Source: Parabacteroides sp. An277
GTDB taxonomy: Bacteria; Bacteroidota; Bacteroidia; Bacteroidales; Tannerellaceae
NCBI RefSeq assembly: GCF_002159645.1
Contig: NZ_NFJB01000002.1
Span: 62,001 to 126,000, forward strand
Length of the DNA: 64,000 nucleotides
Direction of reading: 5' to 3'
Shown piece by piece: positions 2,622 to 55,481 of the stretch. The number at the start of each line of letters is the position of its first letter. Position 1 is the stretch's first letter. The notes under the pieces are model-generated. The model was not told the origin of the DNA, made no database searches, and saw only the letters and a program-made list of their open reading frames with translations. Both the position numbers and the translations under genes were made by a program.

Positions 2622-5600
2622 ATGAACAAAAAAGTACTTACATTGTGCGCGGGTTTCTTACTCGCGGGAGGTGTGTATGCAAATGCACAGTACGTAAAAG
2701 TTGACCCTACTAAGGACAATTTAGTAGAAGGTGAATACGTATTGATGAATGCTGCAGGTGACTCTATTGTATCGTTTACTGAAGATGCTTCGGGTACATG
2801 GGATAATGTGGTTGTCCGGAAAGCTACATCAAAAGAAGTAACAGATGCAGATATAGTGTCTATTGCAAAGTCCGGACAATATTATTGGACTCTTGCTCAC
2901 GAAGGACGTCCTGTCTATGTTTGGACAAATAATCAAGCTTATACAGCAGTGGGAAGCGCATCAGTTTCTTTTGGTACCCCTGTTGATTCATTGTTTAATA
3001 TCCGTGTTAATTCAAGTAGTATTAGTGGTGCACAAGCAAACAAATATCTAACTCGTACAGAAGATTCATTGGTAAAGGGCTTTGATAAGGCGAATGGTAA
3101 TCAATCGCAATTTGCCTTATATGCAAAATTGGCAGAAGCTCCAGAAGGCGAAACTATTGCCAACATTGACGAGATGGAACAGACTTTCTTGTTGATGATT
3201 GACAACCAGTATGTCGGATTAGCAAGTGAAACTACAAGAGCCGCTGTTGCAGATAACAGTGGTTTGACTTTGGTAGACGAAAAACCGGCCAACGAAGATG
3301 GTTTTGTTTGGGTAGTTGAAGCAAATGGTGCTTATAAGAACTTGAAATCGGGTCAATACTTGGCTGTAACAGAAGATGGCAAATTAACTCTTTCTGAAAC
3401 AGCAACGGCCAATAACCAAGTTTCTTATAATGGTAATGGCTTGTTGATTGGAGAAACATTGGTGGGTGCAGGAATGATCTTGGAATCCAATACGCCGCTG
3501 CCTATTGATATTACTACTTATGATGCAGCAGAATCGGATGCCGAGAAAGTTACGTTGGTGACAATAGATGGTACTGTGATTTCTGCAGATGGAACACTTG
3601 TTACTTACAATGAAAACGATGCAGTTGAGACTGTTTGGAAGGTTGCTGCCGTTAAAACAGGGGCAAGTAACTATGAAGTTCGTTTGCAAAATAGCGAAGC
3701 CGAAACAGATGGTTATTTGGCGATTGAAGATACAAATGGAAACGTTCAGTATGTGACAATCGAAGGTATATCTGTGGATGAAGACGGCAGTTTCTCTTTG
3801 CCTACGACAGGTGGTGTCATTTTAAGAGCTGGTAATGATTATGTTTCTTTGCAAGGTGGTGAATTAGTTACTACTTCTGTAAAAGGCCAAGCTACCGAAT
3901 TTGGTTTGGGCGACATCAAAGAAGCATTTGTAAATGTAGCTACGTTATTGCAACGTAATGCGAAGTCATTCACTATCGAAATCGCTTATGATAAGGATGG
4001 AGACCAAGAATATGAAACTGACTTGACATCTATCTTCGAAGGCGAGTTGATTCCGGTTCAATTTGAATACGACAAGTACAATAGTGGAGCTACTTGGTAT
4101 ACTTTAGCCAACGGAGGCAAAACTAAATTCATGTTGATAAATGAAAATCAGGAAATCTTGGCATTGAATACAGACCCTGATAAGATTTGGTCTTCTGGTG
4201 CAGTTACCCATGCTTATCCTTTGGAACTGATTTCTGCAAAAGAATATGTAACTGATTTGAAGGAAGCTCAAGCTGAAGGCCGTGAACCTTACTACAAGAC
4301 CATGTTTAGCTTCCAATATACTCCGGGTACGGATGCTTCGATAGTAACAAGCATTGATTACATCTTTGTAGATGGCATTCAATTAGGTTGCTATACAGAT
4401 ACGAAGAAAGTTGCTTACTTGGCAGGCGAAGGCGATACAGGCTTGGCTCCCGTTAAGGTTACATTGGCTGGAACTACGTTGGTAGATTACAAGTCTTGGT
4501 TGACTACTCCGTCTTACTATAAGGTAGAAGTTGCCAATGCTAACAAGAAGGCTCAATATTATGGTAAGGTATTGGGTCAGAAAGAAGATGGTACTATTGG
4601 CTTCGTTGCTCCGACTAAGACAGATATCACGAAACCGGAAGGTGAGTTTGCTATCCGTTATGTGGCAGCAACAGGAACAATTCCAGCTTACTTCGAGTTT
4701 AAGAATCGTGAGAACAAGGAAACTTATTCATTCGAAGCATCTAAGTTGTATGAAGTAGATATGGCTAAGCATCTGTTCGCTTACCGTGACAACCGTTATG
4801 ATTTGATGGATACGTTGAAGATTACTCCGATTAACGATTACGATCCGTCGGATGGTTTCAAACGCTTCACGGCTGCTGATCTGAATGCAAATACGTACAA
4901 CGTTTCGATGAACTTGGTAGATCAATCTTACTTGTACATCGTAGAAAATCATGACGACAAGCACCGTATTGGTCTTGACCGTGAAGAAGCTACTGATTGG
5001 CGCATTGAAATGCCGACTGTACGTTTGGAAGACGTTACAGGCGATTTGCTCCGTTATGTTCCGGATACGGTAACGGTAGATGTTCCTATCCATTACTGGG
5101 TAAGCATCAATGGCTCTATGGAGGAAGTTTCTACGGATATGAAAGAGGATTACAAGGGTAAATATTACAACCCGAAAGCTACATTGAAGATTCCGACATA
5201 CATCTTCAAGAATACAGCTACGGATGAATATATATCTGGTGATTCTGATAGCGAAGAAGCTGCAAATTCTTATTATTACTGCCCGTCTAAGACAAGTGCT
5301 ACGCGTATGGCATTGAAGATAGTCGGTGATAGTACGTTAAACTTGATTCCAGTTTATAACTGGGCATGGTCTTGGAGCGCAGATGCAGATAATAACGGTA
5401 ATTGGGTTGTAGCAAATAAAGCTCATGCAGTTTCTGAAAGTTATTATGAAAGCTATGCAGCTGGTTTGTATTTGTCTAACCAGAAGATTATCGGTGGAAC
5501 AACGGCCAATACGGGTGTATTGAAAGATGTAACTCGTTTCGAAGCTACTTCAAATGATTTGTTCCTTATCGAACCGTCTGAAGCTCCTACTTACAAGACA

Positions 5601-6494
5601 TTGGCTCAAGATAACAAGATTATTATCTCTCGTGTAGAAAATAATGATGAAGTTATCTACGAGGATAGCTTGTTTGCTGGCATTGACAACCGTTTGGCAT
5701 ACGACATCAATCCGACATTGTATGTAGATACGGCATATGTAAACCGTCCGGGCAACTATCGTTATGAATATCTATTGTCTGTTCGTCCGCTCCGCACGGA
5801 TAGCATCGACGATTGCAACAATCCGAACCACGAACATCCGCGTACAGCATTCACGGAAGGTGATTTCTTAGTGGTAATGCGCGATTCAATGGATGTTGAA
5901 GACGACAAGAATGTACATAACAACAAGTATGCTTACAATGGTCAACCGAAATTGGCATTCGTTTCAGGTATCCACCAAAACGATACATTATATTACACCA
6001 ATGCTGCCGGTGAAATCATTGCTAAGTCTGAAGTAGGCAATGCTGACTACAACTTCGCTAAGTTCGCCTTCAAGATGATCAACGAAGATGAGAATGAATT
6101 TGTAGTTGAAACAGCTTATGGTTACGATGCCGTTAAATGGATTAATGGCGAACCTGTAGAGTATGAAGTATCTAAGGGTTATCTGAAGTGGGATAATGGC
6201 CACTTGGTTGTAACTCAGAACTTAGATGAAGCTGAACGTTTCACCATGGAAGATAGCGAACTTGAAGCTACAGCTAACGAATCCATCACCGCTGAAGGTG
6301 CAGTTTCAGTCGTTGCTACCGACGGTGCTGTCATCATCAAGGGTGCAGAAGGCAAGAACGTAGTAATCGCTACTATCTTGGGTAAGGTTGTCGCTAACGA
6401 GACAATCAACTCGGATAACGAGACGATCGCTGTACCGGCTGGTATCGCAGTCGTTTCAGTGGACGGCGAAAGCTTCAAGGTAGTCGTTAAATAA
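2622..6494 (+). CDS. Large DUF6383 surface/secreted protein, paralogue 1
   Basis: A 1290-residue protein with a signal peptide (MNKKVLTLCAGFLLAGGVYA) and no membrane segment after it. The body is acidic, beta-rich and repetitive. The last ~80 residues form a DUF6383-type domain ending VSVDGESFKVVVK. This tail resembles a type A T9SS sorting domain (VVIATILGKVV ... IAVPAGIAVVSV ... KVVVK), so surface export and anchoring through it is a plausible inference, not shown. Residues from about 400 to the end align with the minus-strand paralogue at 15431-19501, and parts are near-identical (NPNHEHPRTAFTEGDF, VMRDSMDVEDDKNVHNNKYA). The first ~380 residues after the signal are unrelated. ATG at 2622 follows an AT-rich leader without Shine-Dalgarno, as usual in Bacteroidetes. 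Function unknown. Confidence 0.85.
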   Translation: MNKKVLTLCAGFLLAGGVYANAQYVKVDPTKDNLVEGEYVLMNAAGDSIVSFTEDASGTWDNVVVRKATSKEVTDADIVSIAKSGQYYWTLAHEGRPVYVWTNNQAYTAVGSASVSFGTPVDSLFNIRVNSSSISGAQANKYLTRTEDSLVKGFDKANGNQSQFALYAKLAEAPEGETIANIDEMEQTFLLMIDNQYVGLASETTRAAVADNSGLTLVDEKPANEDGFVWVVEANGAYKNLKSGQYLAVTEDGKLTLSETATANNQVSYNGNGLLIGETLVGAGMILESNTPLPIDITTYDAAESDAEKVTLVTIDGTVISADGTLVTYNENDAVETVWKVAAVKTGASNYEVRLQNSEAETDGYLAIEDTNGNVQYVTIEGISVDEDGSFSLPTTGGVILRAGNDYVSLQGGELVTTSVKGQATEFGLGDIKEAFVNVATLLQRNAKSFTIEIAYDKDGDQEYETDLTSIFEGELIPVQFEYDKYNSGATWYTLANGGKTKFMLINENQEILALNTDPDKIWSSGAVTHAYPLELISAKEYVTDLKEAQAEGREPYYKTMFSFQYTPGTDASIVTSIDYIFVDGIQLGCYTDTKKVAYLAGEGDTGLAPVKVTLAGTTLVDYKSWLTTPSYYKVEVANANKKAQYYGKVLGQKEDGTIGFVAPTKTDITKPEGEFAIRYVAATGTIPAYFEFKNRENKETYSFEASKLYEVDMAKHLFAYRDNRYDLMDTLKITPINDYDPSDGFKRFTAADLNANTYNVSMNLVDQSYLYIVENHDDKHRIGLDREEATDWRIEMPTVRLEDVTGDLLRYVPDTVTVDVPIHYWVSINGSMEEVSTDMKEDYKGKYYNPKATLKIPTYIFKNTATDEYISGDSDSEEAANSYYYCPSKTSATRMALKIVGDSTLNLIPVYNWAWSWSADADNNGNWVVANKAHAVSESYYESYAAGLYLSNQKIIGGTTANTGVLKDVTRFEATSNDLFLIEPSEAPTYKTLAQDNKIIISRVENNDEVIYEDSLFAGIDNRLAYDINPTLYVDTAYVNRPGNYRYEYLLSVRPLRTDSIDDCNNPNHEHPRTAFTEGDFLVVMRDSMDVEDDKNVHNNKYAYNGQPKLAFVSGIHQNDTLYYTNAAGEIIAKSEVGNADYNFAKFAFKMINEDENEFVVETAYGYDAVKWINGEPVEYEVSKGYLKWDNGHLVVTQNLDEAERFTMEDSELEATANESITAEGAVSVVATDGAVIIKGAEGKNVVIATILGKVVANETINSDNETIAVPAGIAVVSVDGESFKVVVK

Positions 6495-6587
6495 TTGACA
6501 ATTGAGAATTGACAATTATCCATTGAACTAAAGTTCATAACATTATAAATTTAAGTTGTTAATAAATAGTTAATAAGCTACTCAGTG

Positions 6588-6623
6588 CCCCTCGCGAGAG
6601 TCGCCGCAGCGCATAAACGTTAG
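6588..6623 (+). promoter_or_regulatory. 36-bp 3' trailer block shared by both DUF6383 genes
   Basis: About 95 nt after the stop lies a block starting cccctcgcgagagtcgcc and ending cataaacgttag. It is identical to the reverse complement of 15327-15362 behind the other paralogue. It contains the palindrome CTCGCGAG. Flanking AT-rich text (aataaatagttaataagct) is also shared. Confidence 0.7.
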
Positions 6624-6680
6624 AAAAAATTCTATTCAAGGCGCTCCCTTCTGGGAAGACCGGGGCGCAAAACGCTGAAG

Positions 6681-6716
6681 AGCCTCTTTTCGGTTTCGGC
6701 CGAGAAGGGGCTTTTC
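6681..6716 (+). terminator. Terminator of the plus-strand DUF6383 gene
   Basis: AGCCTCTTTTCGG pairs with CCGAGAAGGGGCT (13 bp with two G:U pairs), loop TTTCGG, then TTTT. The other paralogue has the same terminator design. Confidence 0.8.
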
Positions 6717-6742
6717 CCGTCTGACGCGGCGTTGACAACAAG

Positions 6743-6957
6743 CGAGCCTCCTCGTCAACAGTCGACGTGCTCCTTCGTGCAAGGTCGACGAGCCCCCTCG
6801 TCGATGACAAACGAGCCCCCTCGTCGATGGTCGACGGAGAATCCCGTTCGAGACATTTGCGTCGACAATCGACGGAAAACGGATTTTCCCGCTTACTTCC
6901 GTCGACCGTCGACGCAATTTGTATTTTTTCACATTCTTCCGTCGATGAACGACGGAG
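6743..6957. repeat. Two nested GTCGAC-type palindrome arrays, 23-bp and 40-bp periods
   Basis: Units begin at 6743, 6766, 6789 and 6812, exactly 23 bp apart. The consensus is CGAGCCCCCTCGTCGATGG then TCGA, with arms CGAG/CTCG and TCGA/TCGA. They are followed by GTCGAnnnnCGACG palindromes at 6861, 6901 and 6941, exactly 40 bp apart. Short frames run through the region on both strands, but they only reflect the repeat. The region lies between the DUF6383 terminator and the pnp promoter. Confidence 0.8.
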
Positions 6958-7028
6958 CATGGAAAGCCTCCCACAGAGAAAAACAAAAAATTAATGCCAT
7001 TTCAATGGGATAGCATTCAAACTTTTAT

Positions 7029-7036
7029 TACCTTTG
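7029..7036 (+). promoter_or_regulatory. pnp promoter -7 box
   Basis: TACCTTTG. It places the transcription start near 7043, which argues that translation begins at the ATG at 7076 rather than at the in-frame TTG at 7034 inside this box. Confidence 0.75.
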
Positions 7037-7075
7037 CGGCGATTTTTGACAGATGAGAAAAATATAAACAAGGTT

Positions 7076-9256
7076 ATGCTTAATCCAATTAACAAGACGA
7101 TCGAGTTGGGCGATGGACGTACCATCACCATCGAAACCGGGAAATTGGCCAAGCAAGCTGACGGTGCTGTAACAGTCCGTATGGGCAATACAGTACTGCT
7201 GGCTACTGTTTGTGCCGCGAAAGATGCCAATCCCGGAGTTGATTTTATGCCGCTCCAAGTAGAATACAAAGAGAAGTTTTCTGCTTTTGGACGTTTCCCG
7301 GGCGGCTTCACGAAACGAGAAGGGAAAGCTTCTGATTATGAAATTTTGACGGCCCGTTTGGTGGACCGCGCGTTACGTCCGCTTTTCCCAGATAATTACC
7401 ACGCTGAAGTTTACGTTAACATTATATTGTTCTCGGCGGATGGCGAAGATATGCCGGACGCATTGGCAGGATTAGCTGCTTCGGCGGCATTAGCGGTTTC
7501 AGATATTCCGTTTAATGGCCCGATTTCAGAAGTCCGTGTGGCACGAATCGATGGAAAGTTTGTGATAAACCCGACATTCTCTCAACTGGAGAAAGCCGAT
7601 ATCGACATTATGGTTGGTGCTACACTGGACAACATCATGATGGTGGAAGGCGAAATGAACGAGGTACAGGAGTCTGAAATGCTAGATGCCATCAAGGCAG
7701 CTCACGAGGCTATCAAAGTGCAATGCCAAGCCCAGATGGAATTAATGGAAGCATGCGGTACGACCGTGAAACGTGAATATTGCCACGAAGTAAACGATGA
7801 AGACCTCCGGAAGGATGTGCATGACAAATGCTATGACAAGGTATACGCCATTGCGACATCAGGTTCCGACAAACACCAGCGCGCCGATGCGTTTGATGCC
7901 ATTGTAGAGGAATTCAAATCGCAATTCACGGAAGAAGAGTTAACGGACGAAAAAGTGGAAATGATCGACCGTTACTACCACGATGTAGAAAAAGAGGCTA
8001 TGCGTCGCGCTATTTTGGACGAAGGCAAACGCCTCGATGGACGTAAGACCACAGAAATCCGCCCCATCTGGATTGAAACAGACTGCTTGCCAGGTCCTCA
8101 CGGTGCTGCGATTTTCACACGTGGCGAAACACAATCCTTGTCGACAGTGACATTAGGCACCAAAGACGACGAGAAAATTATCGACGATGTATTAACGCAA
8201 GGCAAAGAACGATTCTTGCTGCATTATAACTTCCCCCCCTTCTCGACAGGAGAAGCCAAAGCACAACGTGGCGTAGGACGGCGCGAAGTAGGGCACGGCC
8301 ATTTGGCTTGGCGTGCGTTGAAGCGGATGATTCCGGAAGATTACCCTTACGTCGTACGCGTGATGTCAGATATCTTGGAATCAAACGGTTCTTCTTCGAT
8401 GGCAACAGTTTGTGCCGGTACCTTGGCTTTGCGTGATGCGGGTGTTCCTATGAAGAAACCAGTATCAGGTATTGCGATGGGTTTGATTTCAGAAAATAAA
8501 GGTACGAACTACGCTATTTTGTCGGATATCTTAGGTGATGAAGACCACTTGGGAGATATGGACTTCAAGGTAACTGGTACGAAAGATGGTATCACCGCCA
8601 CTCAAATGGATATCAAAGTAGATGGACTTTCATACGATATTTTGGAGAAGGCTTTAGCGCAGGCTCGCGAAGGACGCATGTACATCTTAAACAAGATATT
8701 GGAAGTTCAACCGGAAGCTCGTCCAGACTTGAAACCGCATGCACCGCGCATCGAAACGCTTACGGTAGGCAAAGAATACATTGGTGCCATTATCGGCCCA
8801 GGCGGTAAGATTATCCAAGGAATTCAAGAAAAGACAGGTGCCACTATCTCGATTGAAGAGGTAGACGGCGTAGGTAAAGTAGAAATTTCAGCTGTCAATA
8901 AGGAGAGCATCGATGCCGCATTACGTGCTATCAAGGCGATTGTGGCTGTACCGGAAGTAGGCGAAGTCTATGAAGGAAAGATTTCATCCATCATGCCTTA
9001 TGGTGCATTTGTGGAATTCATGCCGGGACGCGATGGATTGCTCCATATTTCTGAAATCGATTGGCGTCGCCTCGAAACCGTAGAACAAGCCGGCCTGAAA
9101 GAGGGTGATACAATTAAAGTGAAACTAATGGATATCGATCCTAAGACAGGTAAGTTCAAACTTTCACACCGTGTATTGATGCCGAAACCCGAAGGATACG
9201 AAGAACGTCCTTCGAGAAGTGGACGCAACGGTAATGGAAACGGACGGAACCGTTAA
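7076..9256 (+). CDS. pnp: Polyribonucleotide nucleotidyltransferase (PNPase)
   Basis: A 726-residue exoribonuclease that degrades RNA 3' to 5' with phosphate, releasing nucleoside diphosphates; a trimeric cytoplasmic enzyme of mRNA turnover. Domains in order: first RNase PH domain ([20 protein letters not shown] at the N-terminus, then [15 protein letters not shown]), helical linker, second RNase PH domain with the active-site stretch [20 protein letters not shown] domain ([17 protein letters not shown]) and S1 domain ([20 protein letters not shown]), with a basic Gly/Asn/Arg-rich tail [14 protein letters not shown] 7076 is chosen because the in-frame TTG at 7034 lies inside the promoter. Monocistronic, with its own terminator at 9293-9335. 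Confidence 0.97.
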
Positions 9257-19920: not shown

Positions 19921-20052
19921 GAGATTTGAGCAAAAACTTTTAGGTTTTTATCCGAAACCAAGACTTTTGAGGACGAAACCCTAAGGTTTGGAGGATAAAC
20001 TTGAACTTAACGACAAAAAAATAGAACCTCTTTATATCAAGATTCATTTATG

Positions 20053-20110
20053 CCTATAATCGTTTTCGTTTATAACGAGAATCCTTTTCATTTATAACGA
20101 GAATCGCGAG
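20053..20110. repeat. TTATAACGAGAATC array, 22-bp period
   Basis: TATAACGAGAATC occurs at 20071 and 20093, exactly 22 bp apart, with a degenerate unit before it. The same motif in the opposite orientation (GGATTCTCGTTATAA) recurs at 55381-55427 in an unrelated intergenic region. Confidence 0.75.
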
Positions 20111-23320: not shown

Positions 23321-23424
23321 AACATTATTTTTGAATCTTTTATCCTTTTAGATATGAATTTCGTGTGAAATCTGAAACCCCGCCCCTTTTACAGCCTGAA
23401 AATGAGCCTACCATTCCGATTGCA

Positions 23425-23682
23425 AACCCCTGCAAACTGCAGCAACCTTGCAATCCCCTTTGCAAACCTTCCGCAAGGTTGCGGCAACTTTACAATTCCG
23501 ATTGCAAACCTCCTGCAAATTGCAGCGACCTTGCAATCCCCTTTGCAAACCTCCTGCAAATTGCAGCGACCTTACAATCCCCTTTGCAGACTTCCTGCAA
23601 ATTGCAGCGACCTTGCAATCCCCTTTGCAGACCTCCTGCAAATTGCGGCAACCTTGCAAACCCCTTTGCAGACCTGTTCAAA
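23425..23682. repeat. 41-bp tandem array, about six copies
   Basis: The landmark TGCAGC (or TGCGGC) falls at 23438, 23480, 23521, 23562, 23603 and 23644, spacing 42, 41, 41, 41 and 41 bp. The unit combines two ~20-bp halves, CCTTGCAATCCCCTTTGCAA and CCTCCTGCAAATTGCAGCGA, each with its own palindrome (TTGCAA and TGCAAATTGCA). There are no unique spacers. Several reading frames run open through it only because the unit lacks stops. It fills most of the gap between the glycosyltransferase 3' end and the ppk1 promoter; 23321-23424 holds nothing else recognised. Confidence 0.9.
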
Positions 23683-28599: not shown

Positions 28600-28682
28600 A
28601 CGTATCGCCGATATTTGTGTATCTTCAGCCTAAAGATATACAAATATCGTCGATATTTATACAAACATCGACGATATTTGAA
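28600..28682. repeat. CGATATTTG palindrome array, ~21-bp phase
   Basis: GATATTT occurs at 28610, 28652 and 28673 (spacings 42 and 21), with a degraded unit between the first two. Palindromes include AATATCGTCGATATT. The rest of 28394-28840 holds overlapping short open frames on both strands, including a short 12-bp repeat (gttgataaagcg, ggttgaaaagtc) near 28478-28515; no real gene is recognised there. Confidence 0.6.
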
Positions 28683-28840
28683 GAAAAGGAAGTTAATTTC
28701 CAATGTTTTCTTCGGTACAAAAAAGAAAAAAGAGAGCGGCCAACGCAAGATTAGGTTCTAGTCAAATATGAAGAAGTAGGGATAATATGATAACAAACTG
28801 TCCAATCTGCCTGGCCCTCTCTTATATAACAATTACAACG

Positions 28841-33482: not shown

Positions 33483-33566
33483 GTATTCAACATTGAATAC
33501 AAAATTATTCCACGTTGAATATTTATTTATTCCACATTGAATACGCGCGTATCTCACGTTGAATAG
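33483..33566. repeat. TTGAATA palindrome array inside the RND operon, exact 22-bp period
   Basis: TTGAATA occurs at 33493, 33515, 33537 and 33559, exactly 22 bp apart. Each is preceded by the opposite arm TATTC or a near copy; the first unit, GTATTCAACATTGAATAC, is an 18-bp hyphenated palindrome. The array lies between the adaptor stop and the pump start, so it would be transcribed. Confidence 0.85.
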
Positions 33567-35795: not shown

Positions 35796-36644
35796 ATGCA
35801 ACTGATAAAAGACAAAGAATTTGGAGGAGAACGGCCGCTGTTTGCTTCACACGACCTTCACTTAGACCATGTCGTCATACGGGCTGGAGAATCGGCCATC
35901 AAAGAGTGTACTAATATCGTGGCTACGGATTGTCGCTTCGAGGGGAATTATCCCTTCTGGCATGTGCATGGATTCGTGATAGACCGCTGCTATTTCGACG
36001 TAGGAGGACGGTCGGCCCTTTGGTATTCAGACCATTTAACGATGCGAAATACGGTAATAGACGCCCCGAAGATGTTTCGCGAGATGCAAGAGATAGACAT
36101 CGATAATGTACAAATAAACGATGCGGACGAAATATTCTGGCGATGTGACGGCATACGGATAAAAAACCTGCGGCTGCGGGGCGGTACGTATCCCTTTATG
36201 TTTAGCCAAAATATCCAGGTAGACGGGCTGGAGAGCGACAGCAAGTATGTTTTCCAATATGTGAAGAATGTGGAAATACATCACGCGAAAATTACGACGA
36301 AGGACGCTTTTTGGGAAGTAGAGAATGTCACTATCTACGACTCGGAACTGAACGGCGAGTACCTGGGATGGCACTCGAAAAACCTGCGGCTGGTGAATTG
36401 CCATATCTCTGGCGAACAACCCTTGTGCTATGCGAAAGATTTGGTACTGGAGAATTGCACCTTCGACCCGGCCTGCGACCGTGCCTTCGAGTATTCGACC
36501 CTCACGGCCGACATCCGCGGAAGCATTACGAACATCAAAAACCCTATCTCCGGGCGCATCACGGCAGACCATATCGGCTCCGTCACGCTGGACGAAAATC
36601 TAAAGGCGCCGGGCAATTGCGTAATAGAAATCCGGCAAAAATAG
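35796..36644 (+). CDS. DUF3737 family beta-helix protein
   Basis: A 282-residue cytosolic-looking protein (no signal). It is composed of a right-handed parallel beta-helix in which short strands repeat about every 20 residues (IVATDCRFEGNYPFWHV, VIDRCYFDVGGRSALWY, VTIYDSELNGEYLGWH, LRLVNCHISGEQPLCYA). The family is widespread in gut Firmicutes and Bacteroidetes; I know of no assigned activity. The ATG at 35796 is taken over an in-frame TTG two codons earlier. Its 3' end meets a 40-bp tandem array. Confidence 0.88.
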   Translation: MQLIKDKEFGGERPLFASHDLHLDHVVIRAGESAIKECTNIVATDCRFEGNYPFWHVHGFVIDRCYFDVGGRSALWYSDHLTMRNTVIDAPKMFREMQEIDIDNVQINDADEIFWRCDGIRIKNLRLRGGTYPFMFSQNIQVDGLESDSKYVFQYVKNVEIHHAKITTKDAFWEVENVTIYDSELNGEYLGWHSKNLRLVNCHISGEQPLCYAKDLVLENCTFDPACDRAFEYSTLTADIRGSITNIKNPISGRITADHIGSVTLDENLKAPGNCVIEIRQK

Positions 36645-36896
36645 GATTCCCAAACCGGGAAAGCTCCGCGCAAGCTGCAGCAAGGAATCCCAATTTGGGA
36701 AAGCTCCGCGCAGGCTGCAGCAAGAAATCCCAATTTGGGAAAGCTCCGCGCAGACTGCAGCAAGAAATCCCAACTTGGGAAAGCTCCGCGCAGGCTGCAG
36801 CGAGGAATCCCAACTTGGGAAAGCTTCGCGCAGACTGCAGCAAGGAATCCCAACTTGGGAAAGCTTCGCGCAGACTGCAGCGAGGAATCCCAAAAC
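36645..36896. repeat. Exact 40-bp tandem array between convergent genes, six copies
   Basis: AAGCTYCGCG starts at 36661, 36701, 36741, 36781, 36821 and 36861, always 40 bp apart. The unit has two palindromes, TCCCAAYTTGGGA and a CTGCAG-centred one (GCGCAGRCTGCAGC), roughly 20 bp apart. Variation between copies is mostly single bases. There are no unique spacers. It fills nearly the whole gap between the DUF3737 and nitroreductase 3' ends. Confidence 0.92.
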
Positions 36897-44843: not shown

Positions 44844-44985
44844 ATGTGTCTTAAAAAAAGCTATTGTCTTTAACAAAAAAGACGCCTGTCTTTTTCAAAA
44901 AAGACGACTGTGTTTTTCCAAAAAGACAACTGTCTTTTTTCAAAAAGACGACTGTGTTTTTTTGGATTCACAGGTGTCTTTTTTT
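44844..44985. repeat. AAAAAGAC/GTCTTTTT palindrome array, exact 22-bp period
   Basis: GACGCCTG, GACGACTG, GACAACTG and GACGACTG start at 44881, 44903, 44925 and 44947, exactly 22 bp apart. Each is flanked by A-runs and T-runs, giving AAAAAGAC-n-GTCTTTTT hairpins; degraded units lie on either side. It overlaps the 3' end of the propeller sensor gene and precedes the histidine kinase. It could act as serial terminators in either direction. Confidence 0.88.
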
Positions 44986-47900
44986 AGGGAGATAACGGGC
45001 TTGTTTTTGACCCCTCGGCGCGATTACGCTTTTTCTGACTTATTGGGATAATTATAGTAAATTGTGTATATTTATCTTTCTCGGAGGCTACCGTGATATC
45101 CCCGCCGTGGTTCAGGATAATTTCCCGGCTGAGGTACATCCCGACACCGACGGCCTCGGAGGTCGTCTTGGTGGTGAAGAAGGGGTCGAACACCTTCCCG
45201 ATGATGGATTCCTCGATGCCAATCCCGTTGTCGTAGACGGTGATGATTACGTTTTCCTGCGTTTCGTCGGGCGAAACCGTCAGTCGTATGAGCGGCTGAT
45301 AGTCCTCTCGCTGGCATTTCTTCTGCAGGGCGTAGATGCTATTGGCCAGTATGCTCATGATGGTCTTACTGAATTGCTCGGCGTCTACCTCGGCAATCTG
45401 GACCAAATCCGGGTCGGGCGCTTCCGTCCGGATGCCGCATTCCGCAATCTCTTGCGCGTAATAGGTGTGAAGCATTTCCATGTTTTTCCGGCAAATCGCC
45501 GCGATGTCCATCACCGAAACCTGCCCTTTCCATTCCTTCAGCATCTCCTCCATGGCCTTGAGGATGCGGGTCGTGTTCAAGCCGTGCGCCTCTATTTTTT
45601 GCAGATTCGTGCGGAGCATTTCCAAGATATCGGTTGAGTCGTCGTAGATATCCGGCGTCATGCGTTCCTCGTCCTCTTTCAGATTTTCGGCCAAGTCCTT
45701 GATTAATCCCAGACTTAAGTGCGAGAAATTGTTCACATAGTTCATAGGATTGAGGATGCGGTCGACGAGTCCCTTCGTCAAAGTACCCACTGTCGCCATC
45801 TTTTCCTGCCGGATTAGTTCGTATTGCGCCTTGCTCAGGTCGTCTAAAGCCACCTCCAATTGCTTCGATTTCTCCTCGATTTTGTCTTTCTGCTGGCGGA
45901 GTTCGGAGGTACGCTGCGCCACAATCTGCTCCAAACGCACCTTTTCCTGGAGCAAACGACGCATGCGTAACCGGATAATGAGCATGATAAATATCGCCAA
46001 AAGCAGCACATATCCCACGACGCAATACCACTTCAGGAAGAAAGGATAGTGCACGTAGAGCGCCAAAGAGACAGGCGCCGTCTCACGGCCATACCGGTCT
46101 CGCGCCATCACCTCGAAGGTATAGCTGCCCGGACGAGGATTGGCATAATGCGCCGAAGTCGTGGTGCTCCAGTCCGACCACGCCGCACCGCTGTGGAAAC
46201 GATACCGGTATTCCACGTCGCCCAGCGCGGACAACGCATCCGAAGAAAAGCTGATACGGATATCGCGACTGTGGCTTTGGAAGTCGTACCGGCTGCTGGG
46301 TAAATCCGTTTCCAGCCGGTCTTCCCCACTAAATCCGCCCCAAAGGATGGAATCTTGGTCCAGTATAATGCGGCGAATATAGGTGTGATTCGTCCGCTGG
46401 TAGTCCGGTTCCTGCTGGTTCCACCGGCTGTGTAGCAAACCAAAACTACCCCCCAGCCAGATATTCTCGCCCTCGATGTCCATCGCCAATACCGGTAAAT
46501 GATGCACCGGATAGAGGAGTTCGTTCCAGCGAGAAAGCCCTTCGCTCGAAGCAGCCGGGTCGTAAACGCGCAACGCCTTGCCTTCGTTGTTGGTAAACCA
46601 GAGGCGTTCCCCCTCCGGATAGACGAACTGAGGATAGGAAGCCTCCGCCAGCCACCCGGACATTTCCGGCTTTTCTACCAGCGATTGGGAGGTGGCATCC
46701 CACTCAAACAGGCCGACGTGGCTCTGCACATACAGGTGTCCGCCCTGCTGATACAGCGTATTATTATAGCGTGCCTCGGCGCCGGACGCGTTCTTAGGCA
46801 CTACAAAAATGTATTCTTTCTTGTCCTCGCTCAGCCGAAACACCTGCCCGTAGATGTTCCGAACCAGGAGTGTTCCTTCCGAATCCTGGTAGAAATGGGT
46901 GGCTTTCTCCACCTTATTACATAATGTACGCGCGCGCGTACCTATATAATATATACCGTCTACCTCGCCGGCATAGCAGCTCCCGTCCGGATTAATAAAG
47001 CAGGAAAGGGTATGCGCCGAACTGAGTTGTTCCACCTTCCCCGCATGGATGCGGAATAAACCTCCGGCCGTAGCAGCATACACCTGCCCGTCCTTGTCTG
47101 GCTGCAGTTGCCAACAGGCGTAATGAATATCCCCTACCGGCTGAAATTTAGCCCCTACTTTTTCATAAATCCCCTGCAAGGTGCCCACTAATAAGCGTCC
47201 ATCTACGTGGCAAACAGACTGCACTTCGCCCAGCAACCCCTCGGTCTCGGCAAAGCGAGTATAGGAGGAATGGACATCCACCAGGAACAAACCTTGGTCC
47301 GTTGCGCCCCACACGTATCCCAAACTATCCGCATAAATTTGGTTTACATTATTGTTACATAATCCATTCTGTTCGGACAAAACATACAGTTCCCGGCCTT
47401 CCCGGTCTAAAGCCACCAGGCCTTTCCCGGCCGTTGCCAGCAGGGTGATGCCGTCGGGCAGGGCTAATTTTTGGTTTACAGGCAGACCTTGGTAATAAAG
47501 AGGCGCGGGCTGCCGGCTGGTTCGCACGATGAAATCCTGCATGGAATCGTCCTCGAGCGTGATGTCCCCGATGGAAGTTTCCACACAAATCCGTCCCTCT
47601 TCTTCGTAGATATCGGTCACTTCGCCCAAAAAACCCTTGTTGCGCTCCGAAAAAATCAGTTGCAATTCCAAAGAACCACGCCGGTCCGACGAGAGAAACC
47701 CGAACAGGTTGTAACCACCTACCCATATTCTTCCGTTCCGGTCCTTGTAGAGTTGGGTAATCCGGAAGATGCCGGGCGCATGGAGAATATGCCAGTCCGC
47801 CTGGTCATAATAGAGCAGACCTTCGAAATTAGCCACGTAGATGCGGCCCTTTTCATCGCCTACTACATCGAAGTTCCGATTGTGCGCTTGGTAGGTAGCA

Positions 47901-55316: not shown

Positions 55317-55380
55317 TATTATTCATGTCTAAATTCCCTTATATGCTTTGCCCAAAATACCGTGGTAACCCCAAAAGATC

Positions 55381-55427
55381 TTCGTTATAATCCAAACGGA
55401 TTCTCGTTATAATTCAAATCGAATATA
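55381..55427. repeat. GGATTCTCGTTATAA array, 22-bp period
   Basis: CGTTATAAT occurs at 55383 and 55405, 22 bp apart, with a degraded third unit (CGAATATAAC). The unit GGATTCTCGTTATAA equals the reverse complement of the array at 20071-20106. It is located in the 165-bp gap between the SpoIIE phosphatase and epimerase genes. Confidence 0.75.
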
Positions 55428-55481
55428 ACTATATTTCCGAAGAGGTATTCCGAAGGCCAAAACATATATCCATAAATCTTT

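Follow-up and report, generated by a model that had tools for sequence, protein, structure and literature searches.

Palindromic minisatellites with two preferred steps in Parabacteroides, and a small, probably decaying array upstream of pnp

Introduction

The closest known counterparts of the arrays described here are the repeats of 22, 23 and 41 nt of Porphyromonas gingivalis, a species of a different family from Parabacteroides, and the match in step size across genera is striking. Minisatellite periods are normally arbitrary, and the instability of hairpin-forming DNA is limited by the SbcCD nuclease. As described in PMC4596501, P. gingivalis carries intergenic minisatellites of 23 nt (BrickBuilt) and 41 nt (PgRS/MITE464), which lie inside MITEs and are mutually non-homologous; the same text cites Nelson 2003 for direct repeats of 22, 23 and 41 nt in strain W83. 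The arrays considered here are likewise intergenic tandem repeats of about 23 or 41 nt. They differ, as far as that text describes BrickBuilt and PgRS, in that the two families there are MITE-borne, whereas here many unrelated and often palindromic arrays occur at a density of approximately 110 per Mb; the leader and tail terminal inverted repeats and the multiple family copies given there are not found for the array upstream of pnp.

A second point of comparison is offered by REP/BIME elements and by the CGTC-tagged palindromes of PMC3733652, which are also short extragenic palindromes, sometimes with two alternating in each unit and often near 3' ends. A stem limit of 8-16 bp for hairpin instability is quoted in the same paper. 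Searches of open-licence literature brought up no paper on a two-step array pattern in Parabacteroides.

The reading that we regard as probable is that the array upstream of pnp belongs, as a small and decaying case, to a set of non-coding palindromic minisatellites that spans the family and whose copy number and motif change at the DNA level; units would be gained, lost and rewritten in DNA when hairpins give rise to slippage or recombination. Taken alone the array is minor; of greater interest are the lattice shared across the family and whatever ruler sets it.

The array upstream of pnp

All coordinates without a locus prefix are positions in the window, that is, the 64,000-nt stretch of Parabacteroides sp. 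An277 (NZ_NFJB01000002.1) that was analysed, and the genome from which it comes is designated G000. Four 23-bp units followed by 40-bp steps had been proposed in the initial annotation, and this layout was borne out by self-similarity scores, with the qualification that the units are degenerate. Lag 23 (across 6743-6829, score 24.4) and lag 40 (across 6857-6954, score 20.6) are the top two among lags 10-100 in 6720-6960. Neither score was reached by any of 2000 first-order Markov sequences of that segment, and in 400 of them the highest score over lags 10-100 was 15.8.

The 23-bp tandem array (6743..6829, no strand assigned, from lag self-similarity) holds 3.8 degenerate copies, of which units 3 and 4 alone are good palindromes (centres 6794.5 and 6817.5). 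The 40-bp array (6857..6956, also unstranded) consists of palindromes centred at 6867, 6907 and 6947, and the GTCGA positions noted earlier as spaced exactly 40 bp, namely 6861, 6901 and 6941, are exact. Between the two arrays stands a junction palindrome, CGTCGA-TGG-TCGACG (6822..6836, unstranded), which shares its motif with the 40-bp array. Exact or near copies of CGTCGA-nnn-TCGACG are thus centred at 6829, 6867, 6907 and 6947, in steps of 38, 40 and 40. Since the palindrome at 6829 follows the last 23-bp unit at a distance of half a period (11.5 bp), the 40-bp motif can be identified as the junction palindrome of the 23-bp array, which may have seeded the 40-bp array. A second palindrome, GGAAAACGGATTTTCC, lies at 6874..6889 (unstranded) within the first 40-bp unit. 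Both arrays are weak and look old, because TRF at score 40 called neither of them and a direct-repeat family search at this site found none. An Rfam scan of the window at the gathering score gave 0 matches.

That chance or an assembly artefact produced the array is highly improbable: the copies are degenerate enough for TRF to miss them, and 3 of 24 contigs that were read from the first base begin inside arrays, but 0/2000 Markov sequences match the scores and two copies of the same 23-bp unit are present at the same site of the sister genome.

The flanking genes had been named pnp and DUF6383, correctly so according to Pfam. The DUF6383 gene (2622..6494, + strand; PF19910 at residues 1216-1289) lies upstream of the array, and pnp (7076..9256, + strand), encoding polyribonucleotide nucleotidyltransferase (PNPase), begins 120-333 bp from it, the start codon having been picked by eye. 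A hairpin with a strong fold at 6677..6716 (+ strand) is the likely terminator of the DUF6383 gene; a terminator consensus scan did not list it, and similar stretches are found elsewhere in G000 as well as in the sister genome. A Bacteroidota-type -7 box, TACCTTTG, is located at 7029..7036 (+ strand) and is kept in the sister genome; by reference to TAnnTTTG, which we take to be the Bacteroidota -7 consensus, it is the likely pnp promoter. The array lies between the likely terminator and the likely promoter and is therefore, judged by position, probably outside both the DUF6383 and the pnp transcripts.

Conservation of the pnp locus

The 600 bp upstream of pnp were read in 30 genomes of the genus, out of 37 with a pnp match, with a detection score of 15 for arrays. 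The motif of the pnp array is present only in G000 and in its closest relative, the sister genome G026 (pnp 98% identical), being absent within 600 bp in 28 of the 30 loci. No array at score 15 is found in 27 of the 30, one of which scores 13.6. Locus L018 (genome G032) has, approximately 210 bp upstream of pnp, a palindromic array of 44 bp (2 x 22; score 20.4) with unrelated sequence, which indicates that the site may acquire arrays independently. In G026 the 100 alignment columns that directly precede the pnp start codon show 97% identity to G000. The array region, compared by hand as was that at 36643, retains two of the 23-bp units and a single TCGA junction palindrome; the 40-bp run is missing, and a different 23-bp palindrome array, detected at lag 46, lies alongside.

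The initial annotation had favoured a dynamic array over a conserved regulatory element and had named invariance across relatives as the outcome that would refute it; no such invariance was seen at the 30 loci, and the comparison with G026, where copies and motif changed next to a nearly unchanged promoter region, agrees with the dynamic alternative. A conserved cis-regulatory element, whether a series of operator sites or a structured leader controlling pnp, is accordingly improbable. Its appeal derives from the position of the array 120-333 bp upstream of the pnp start, from palindromes that resemble dimer sites, from the unrelated palindromic array at the same place in L018, and from a dispersed 21-bp family that has 3.9 copies in both species at 2/2 loci, such that a minority of arrays may be regulatory. 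Against it stand the absence of the motif from most loci of the genus, the different array of the sister next to a nearly identical promoter, the 41-class motifs, which are mostly unrelated to each other, and the location of the array upstream of the promoter box, which makes it unlikely to be part of the pnp leader. Judged by these sequence comparisons, the array does not serve pnp as a conserved control element, and it is probably not needed for pnp expression.

Two classes of step across the genome

A sample of 464 kb of G000 contained 66 arrays, 22 with a period of 21-23 and 26 with a period of 40-42 (48/66); Markov sequences of matching size contained none. The two-class pattern, already suggested for the genome as a whole in the initial annotation, was replicated in a second sample of 361 kb, where 19 and 23 of 56 arrays (42/56) fall in the two classes. 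When the samples are pooled (825 kb), 90 of 122 tandem arrays have one of six period values, 21-23 or 40-42 bp. Both classes are nearly all intergenic, only 5 of 96 arrays overlapping an ORF predicted by a purpose-built gene predictor. Period-14 arrays, many of the AATTGAC type, make up 11 of the 122, and an AATTGAC 7-bp repeat is found at 6493-6517 of the window, just after the DUF6383 gene.

Further arrays of the window, none with an assigned strand, were located by TRF and lag scores at 20043..20105 (22 bp), 23409..23675 (41 bp), 28637..28686 (21 bp) and 33484..33565 (22 bp). Three others, also unstranded, can be set beside the sister genome: the 40-bp array at 36643..36893 corresponds there to a 22-bp array plus one half-unit with altered arms, as judged by eye, the 22-bp array at 44853..45010 to remnants and a 22-bp array with a different palindrome, and the 22-bp array at 55361..55437 to a similar motif.

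Coding repeats were rejected, 22, 23, 40 and 41 not being multiples of 3, and helical phasing alone would not account for the steps, as averages of about 22 and 41 bp do not both make up an integral number of 10.5-bp turns. That dozens of mostly unrelated arrays in one family share two steps suggests a ruler, physical or enzymatic, at work on intergenic DNA. In practical terms, the arrays could be used as strain-typing markers. They also break assemblies, since 3 of 24 contigs of G000 that were read from the first base open inside one (C1, C7 and C8, or L179, L185 and L186, all with 41-42-bp arrays).

Palindromes and sequence freedom

The palindromic fraction of the unit consensus is 0.66 vs 0.53 after shuffling for 43 arrays of 20-24 bp, and 0.60 vs 0.47 for 49 arrays of 39-43 bp. 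At p<=0.05, 42 of the 92 arrays of the two classes are palindromic vs 7 of 30 at other periods; taken individually, 26 of the 43 units of 20-24 bp and 24 of the 49 of 39-43 bp are not significant as palindromes. When palindromes alone were searched in 1.69 Mb, a sample partly chosen for containing arrays and in which pairs within one array are not independent, pairs of similar sequence peaked at two spacings, 53 of them lying at 21-23 bp and 131 at 40-42 bp, and dissimilar pairs peaked at 20-21 bp (51 pairs). The dissimilar pairs of the same sample show extra peaks at 31, 33, 52 and 55 bp, possibly due to other dispersed repeats.

A single hidden 41-bp superfamily was rejected, as pairs of consensus sequences share 17.8 matches vs 17.1 when shuffled and the 99% shuffle level is passed by 4.7% of them. 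The sample contains one or more distant relatives for 25 of 50 arrays of 39-44 bp and for 27 of 43 of the 22 class. This lack of a common consensus (17.8 vs 17.1 matches) sets the arrays apart from REP/BIME elements, and so does the pairing of CGTC with GACG in place of a GTAG or CGTC tag outside the stem. A RAYT (Y1) transposase as mobiliser was also discarded: PF01797 is found in 8 of 38 genomes of the genus, with one match each in G000 and G033 and none in the array-bearing G026, G027 and G036.

By eye, the palindrome of L128:3501 stays constant while the spacer varies and the 41-bp period is held, and in L134:17753 both palindromes of the 40-bp unit keep pairing with different arms. Covariation of the arms is weak in both classes, with 26 compensatory cells vs 18 under the null in the 41 class (reached by 1 of 200 shuffles, several cells coming from one composite array) and 14 vs 9.7 in the 22 class (10 of 200 shuffles). 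Inversion of the palindrome centre, considered as a mark of template switching, is not enriched, with 4 flips vs 62 other changes at 2 or 3 positions. These two results, like the units that are not individually significant as palindromes, weigh against the preferred reading. With regard to growth polarity, similarity to the consensus is lower in the copy nearest the upstream gene than in the last one for 7 arrays and higher for 15. CRISPR arrays were also considered and set aside: in ten printed arrays the spacers repeat with the unit in most copies, the exceptions being the last copies of L128:3501, with differing spacers, and L134:17753, which is degenerate throughout.

Turnover and mobility

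Within G000, the 3' flanks of two DUF6383 genes carry 6 vs 2 copies of a 23-bp unit, although the sequence on the left is 95% identical over 182 bp and that on the right 97% identical over 147 bp. Thirteen arrays have both flanks matched in G026 sequence, where 10 have an array and 3 have none called, and for 5 of the 13 the best match to their own motif in G026 is below 0.7. The changes take several forms: at L125:8783 the motif is kept and the copies number 5.5 vs 3.4 in G026, at L138:10894 a different 41-bp array with the same step occupies the orthologous site, and the step itself is 41 vs 24 bp at L125:17888 and, by eye, 40 vs 22 bp at the 36643 locus.

A rival reading is that the minisatellites are carried in MITEs and moved by a transposase, like BrickBuilt and PgRS of P. 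gingivalis. The 41-bp array at L138:10894-11323 lies between inverted repeats of approximately 165 bp (element L138:10701-11553), arrays and flanks related to this element are dispersed in the sister genome, whose orthologous site has an unrelated 41-bp array, and half of the arrays of 39-44 bp (25 of 50) have relatives at other sites of the sample. Among 99 arrays, however, a single one shows long inverted flanks within 300 bp, one further match being of 19 bp, and the pnp array is not that one; nor does G000 hold a second copy of the pnp array (best match outside the terminator stretch, E=0.65). For the array upstream of pnp a MITE origin is thus unlikely.

Gene context and strand

A second group of explanations places the function of the arrays in RNA, as 3'-end hairpins that terminate transcription or protect the mRNA in a manner similar to REP/BIME elements. 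Where an array of the 41 class has same-direction genes on both sides (36 arrays), it lies at a median of 63 bp past the stop codon, and this class is depleted at divergent gene pairs (3/45 vs 55/276, p=0.035), both in favour of such elements; one palindrome of the pnp array scores as a terminator, which is near chance (1 site vs 0.7 expected in 6480-7100). On the other hand, the sense hairpin of those 36 arrays is stabler in 16 and the antisense in 20 (p=0.59), the corresponding figures for the 22 class are 11 and 14 (p=0.63), and G-T pairs are balanced in both (201 vs 226 in the 41 class and 55 vs 61 in the 22 class). The lack of a strand preference of the hairpins argues against selection on one transcript and favours DNA over RNA as the level concerned, so that an RNA-level element is unlikely. 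The one terminator-like site in 6480-7100 and the absence of strand asymmetry over 61 arrays also led to rejection of an array of intrinsic terminators.

Taxonomic distribution and SbcCD

The densities of 21-23-bp and 40-42-bp arrays per Mb are 50 and 59 in G000 and 50 and 12 in the same genus. The remaining genera of the family have 32 and 22, whereas 20 further families of the order, each sampled by one 20-kb stretch, have 2 and 2. Other named Bacteroidota loci, which include L040 and L041 of the same family, have 13 and 2.

On the premise that a hairpin nuclease could keep such arrays in check, SbcD and SbcC were searched for, once the array scan of the sampled stretches was complete. In G000, which is 99.8% complete, there is no SbcD above the family cut-off (best 22.3 bits) and no SbcC at E<=1e-10. 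Across the family SbcCD is patchy, with low-scoring SbcD in G007, G011, G022, G027 and G036; SbcC matches are found in 45 of 63 family genomes and 0 exceed the model cut-off, with 10 candidates scored per genome.

When long 39-43-bp arrays of the family (score >=60) are sorted by the state of SbcD, 49 are found in 1222 kb of 14 genomes in which SbcD is absent or divergent, compared with none in the 747 kb from 22 genomes whose SbcD is normal, the score threshold and the SbcD bins having been chosen after the data were seen. Most of the 49 come from G000 (38), followed by G119 (4), G027 (4), G036 (2) and G033 (1). Counted by genome, the difference is 5/14 vs 0/22 (p=0.005), or 4/13 vs 0/22 (p=0.014) without G000, in a test that ignores phylogeny; nine genomes of unassigned SbcD status, with 0 long arrays in 147 kb, were omitted. 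At a score of at least 15, the 39-43-bp arrays number 66 with an absent or divergent SbcD and 3 with a normal one. No long array is present in the 5-66 kb sampled from each of 9 of the 14 genomes with absent or divergent SbcD. Among the nine is G026, whose 66 kb picked regardless of arrays contain no 40-42-bp array, and which does have long arrays, uncounted in the test, at loci found via orthology or similarity.

The 21-23-bp class has no link with SbcD (55 vs 40 per Mb, p=0.17), and both classes are absent from 280 kb of 14 genomes outside the family that lack SbcD. The arrays resemble the known hairpin instability that SbcCD limits in being hairpin-forming and, when long, in being associated with missing SbcCD; they differ from it in that isolated long palindromes do not follow SbcD loss. 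These are not commoner without SbcD (32-48 vs 59 per Mb), and pruning of isolated palindromes by SbcCD was rejected by this opposite trend. That loss or alteration of SbcCD, a hairpin nuclease, allows long 40-42-bp arrays to accumulate is proposed as a tentative hypothesis; if it holds, the patchy natural loss of the nuclease would provide a comparative system for the control of palindromes and tandem repeats.

Besides the DNA-level turnover of a decaying minisatellite, which we prefer for the array upstream of pnp, a more specific scheme may be drawn, possible if doubtful, in which a clade-specific DNA process with a built-in ruler rewrites palindromic repeats at approximately 22 or 41 bp whatever their sequence, the lattice outlasting changes of motif, and long 41-bp lattices persist only in genomes that lack SbcCD or have an altered form of it. 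Whether one mechanism makes both periods, as the initial annotation had suggested, receives a mixed answer. In its favour, the 40-bp motif is the palindrome at the junction of the 23-bp array, the two classes occur in the same clade, and loci switch class between G000 and the sister (40 vs 22 bp at 36643, 41 vs 24 bp at L125:17888). Against it, only the 40-42-bp class avoids divergent gene pairs, the shorter class not doing so (3/45 vs 12/38, p=0.004), and the long 40-42-bp arrays follow SbcCD loss, whereas the 21-23-bp class does not.

Other palindromic elements

A dispersed element of 82-87 bp, found at L122:5556, L122:18713, L136:15866, L138:738, L189:1575, L195:7547, L195:18970 and L194:9989, is composed of four TATCTTTA-nnn-TAAAGATA-like palindromes set 21 bp apart, preceded at several loci by AAATATCGTCGATATTT one step ahead. 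It keeps 3.9 copies in the sister genome at 2/2 compared loci, and may be a real regulatory module. Finally, at L004 and L006, ACGTAG..CTACGT palindromes with varying centres continue beyond the 23-bp array at intervals of approximately 23 bp.
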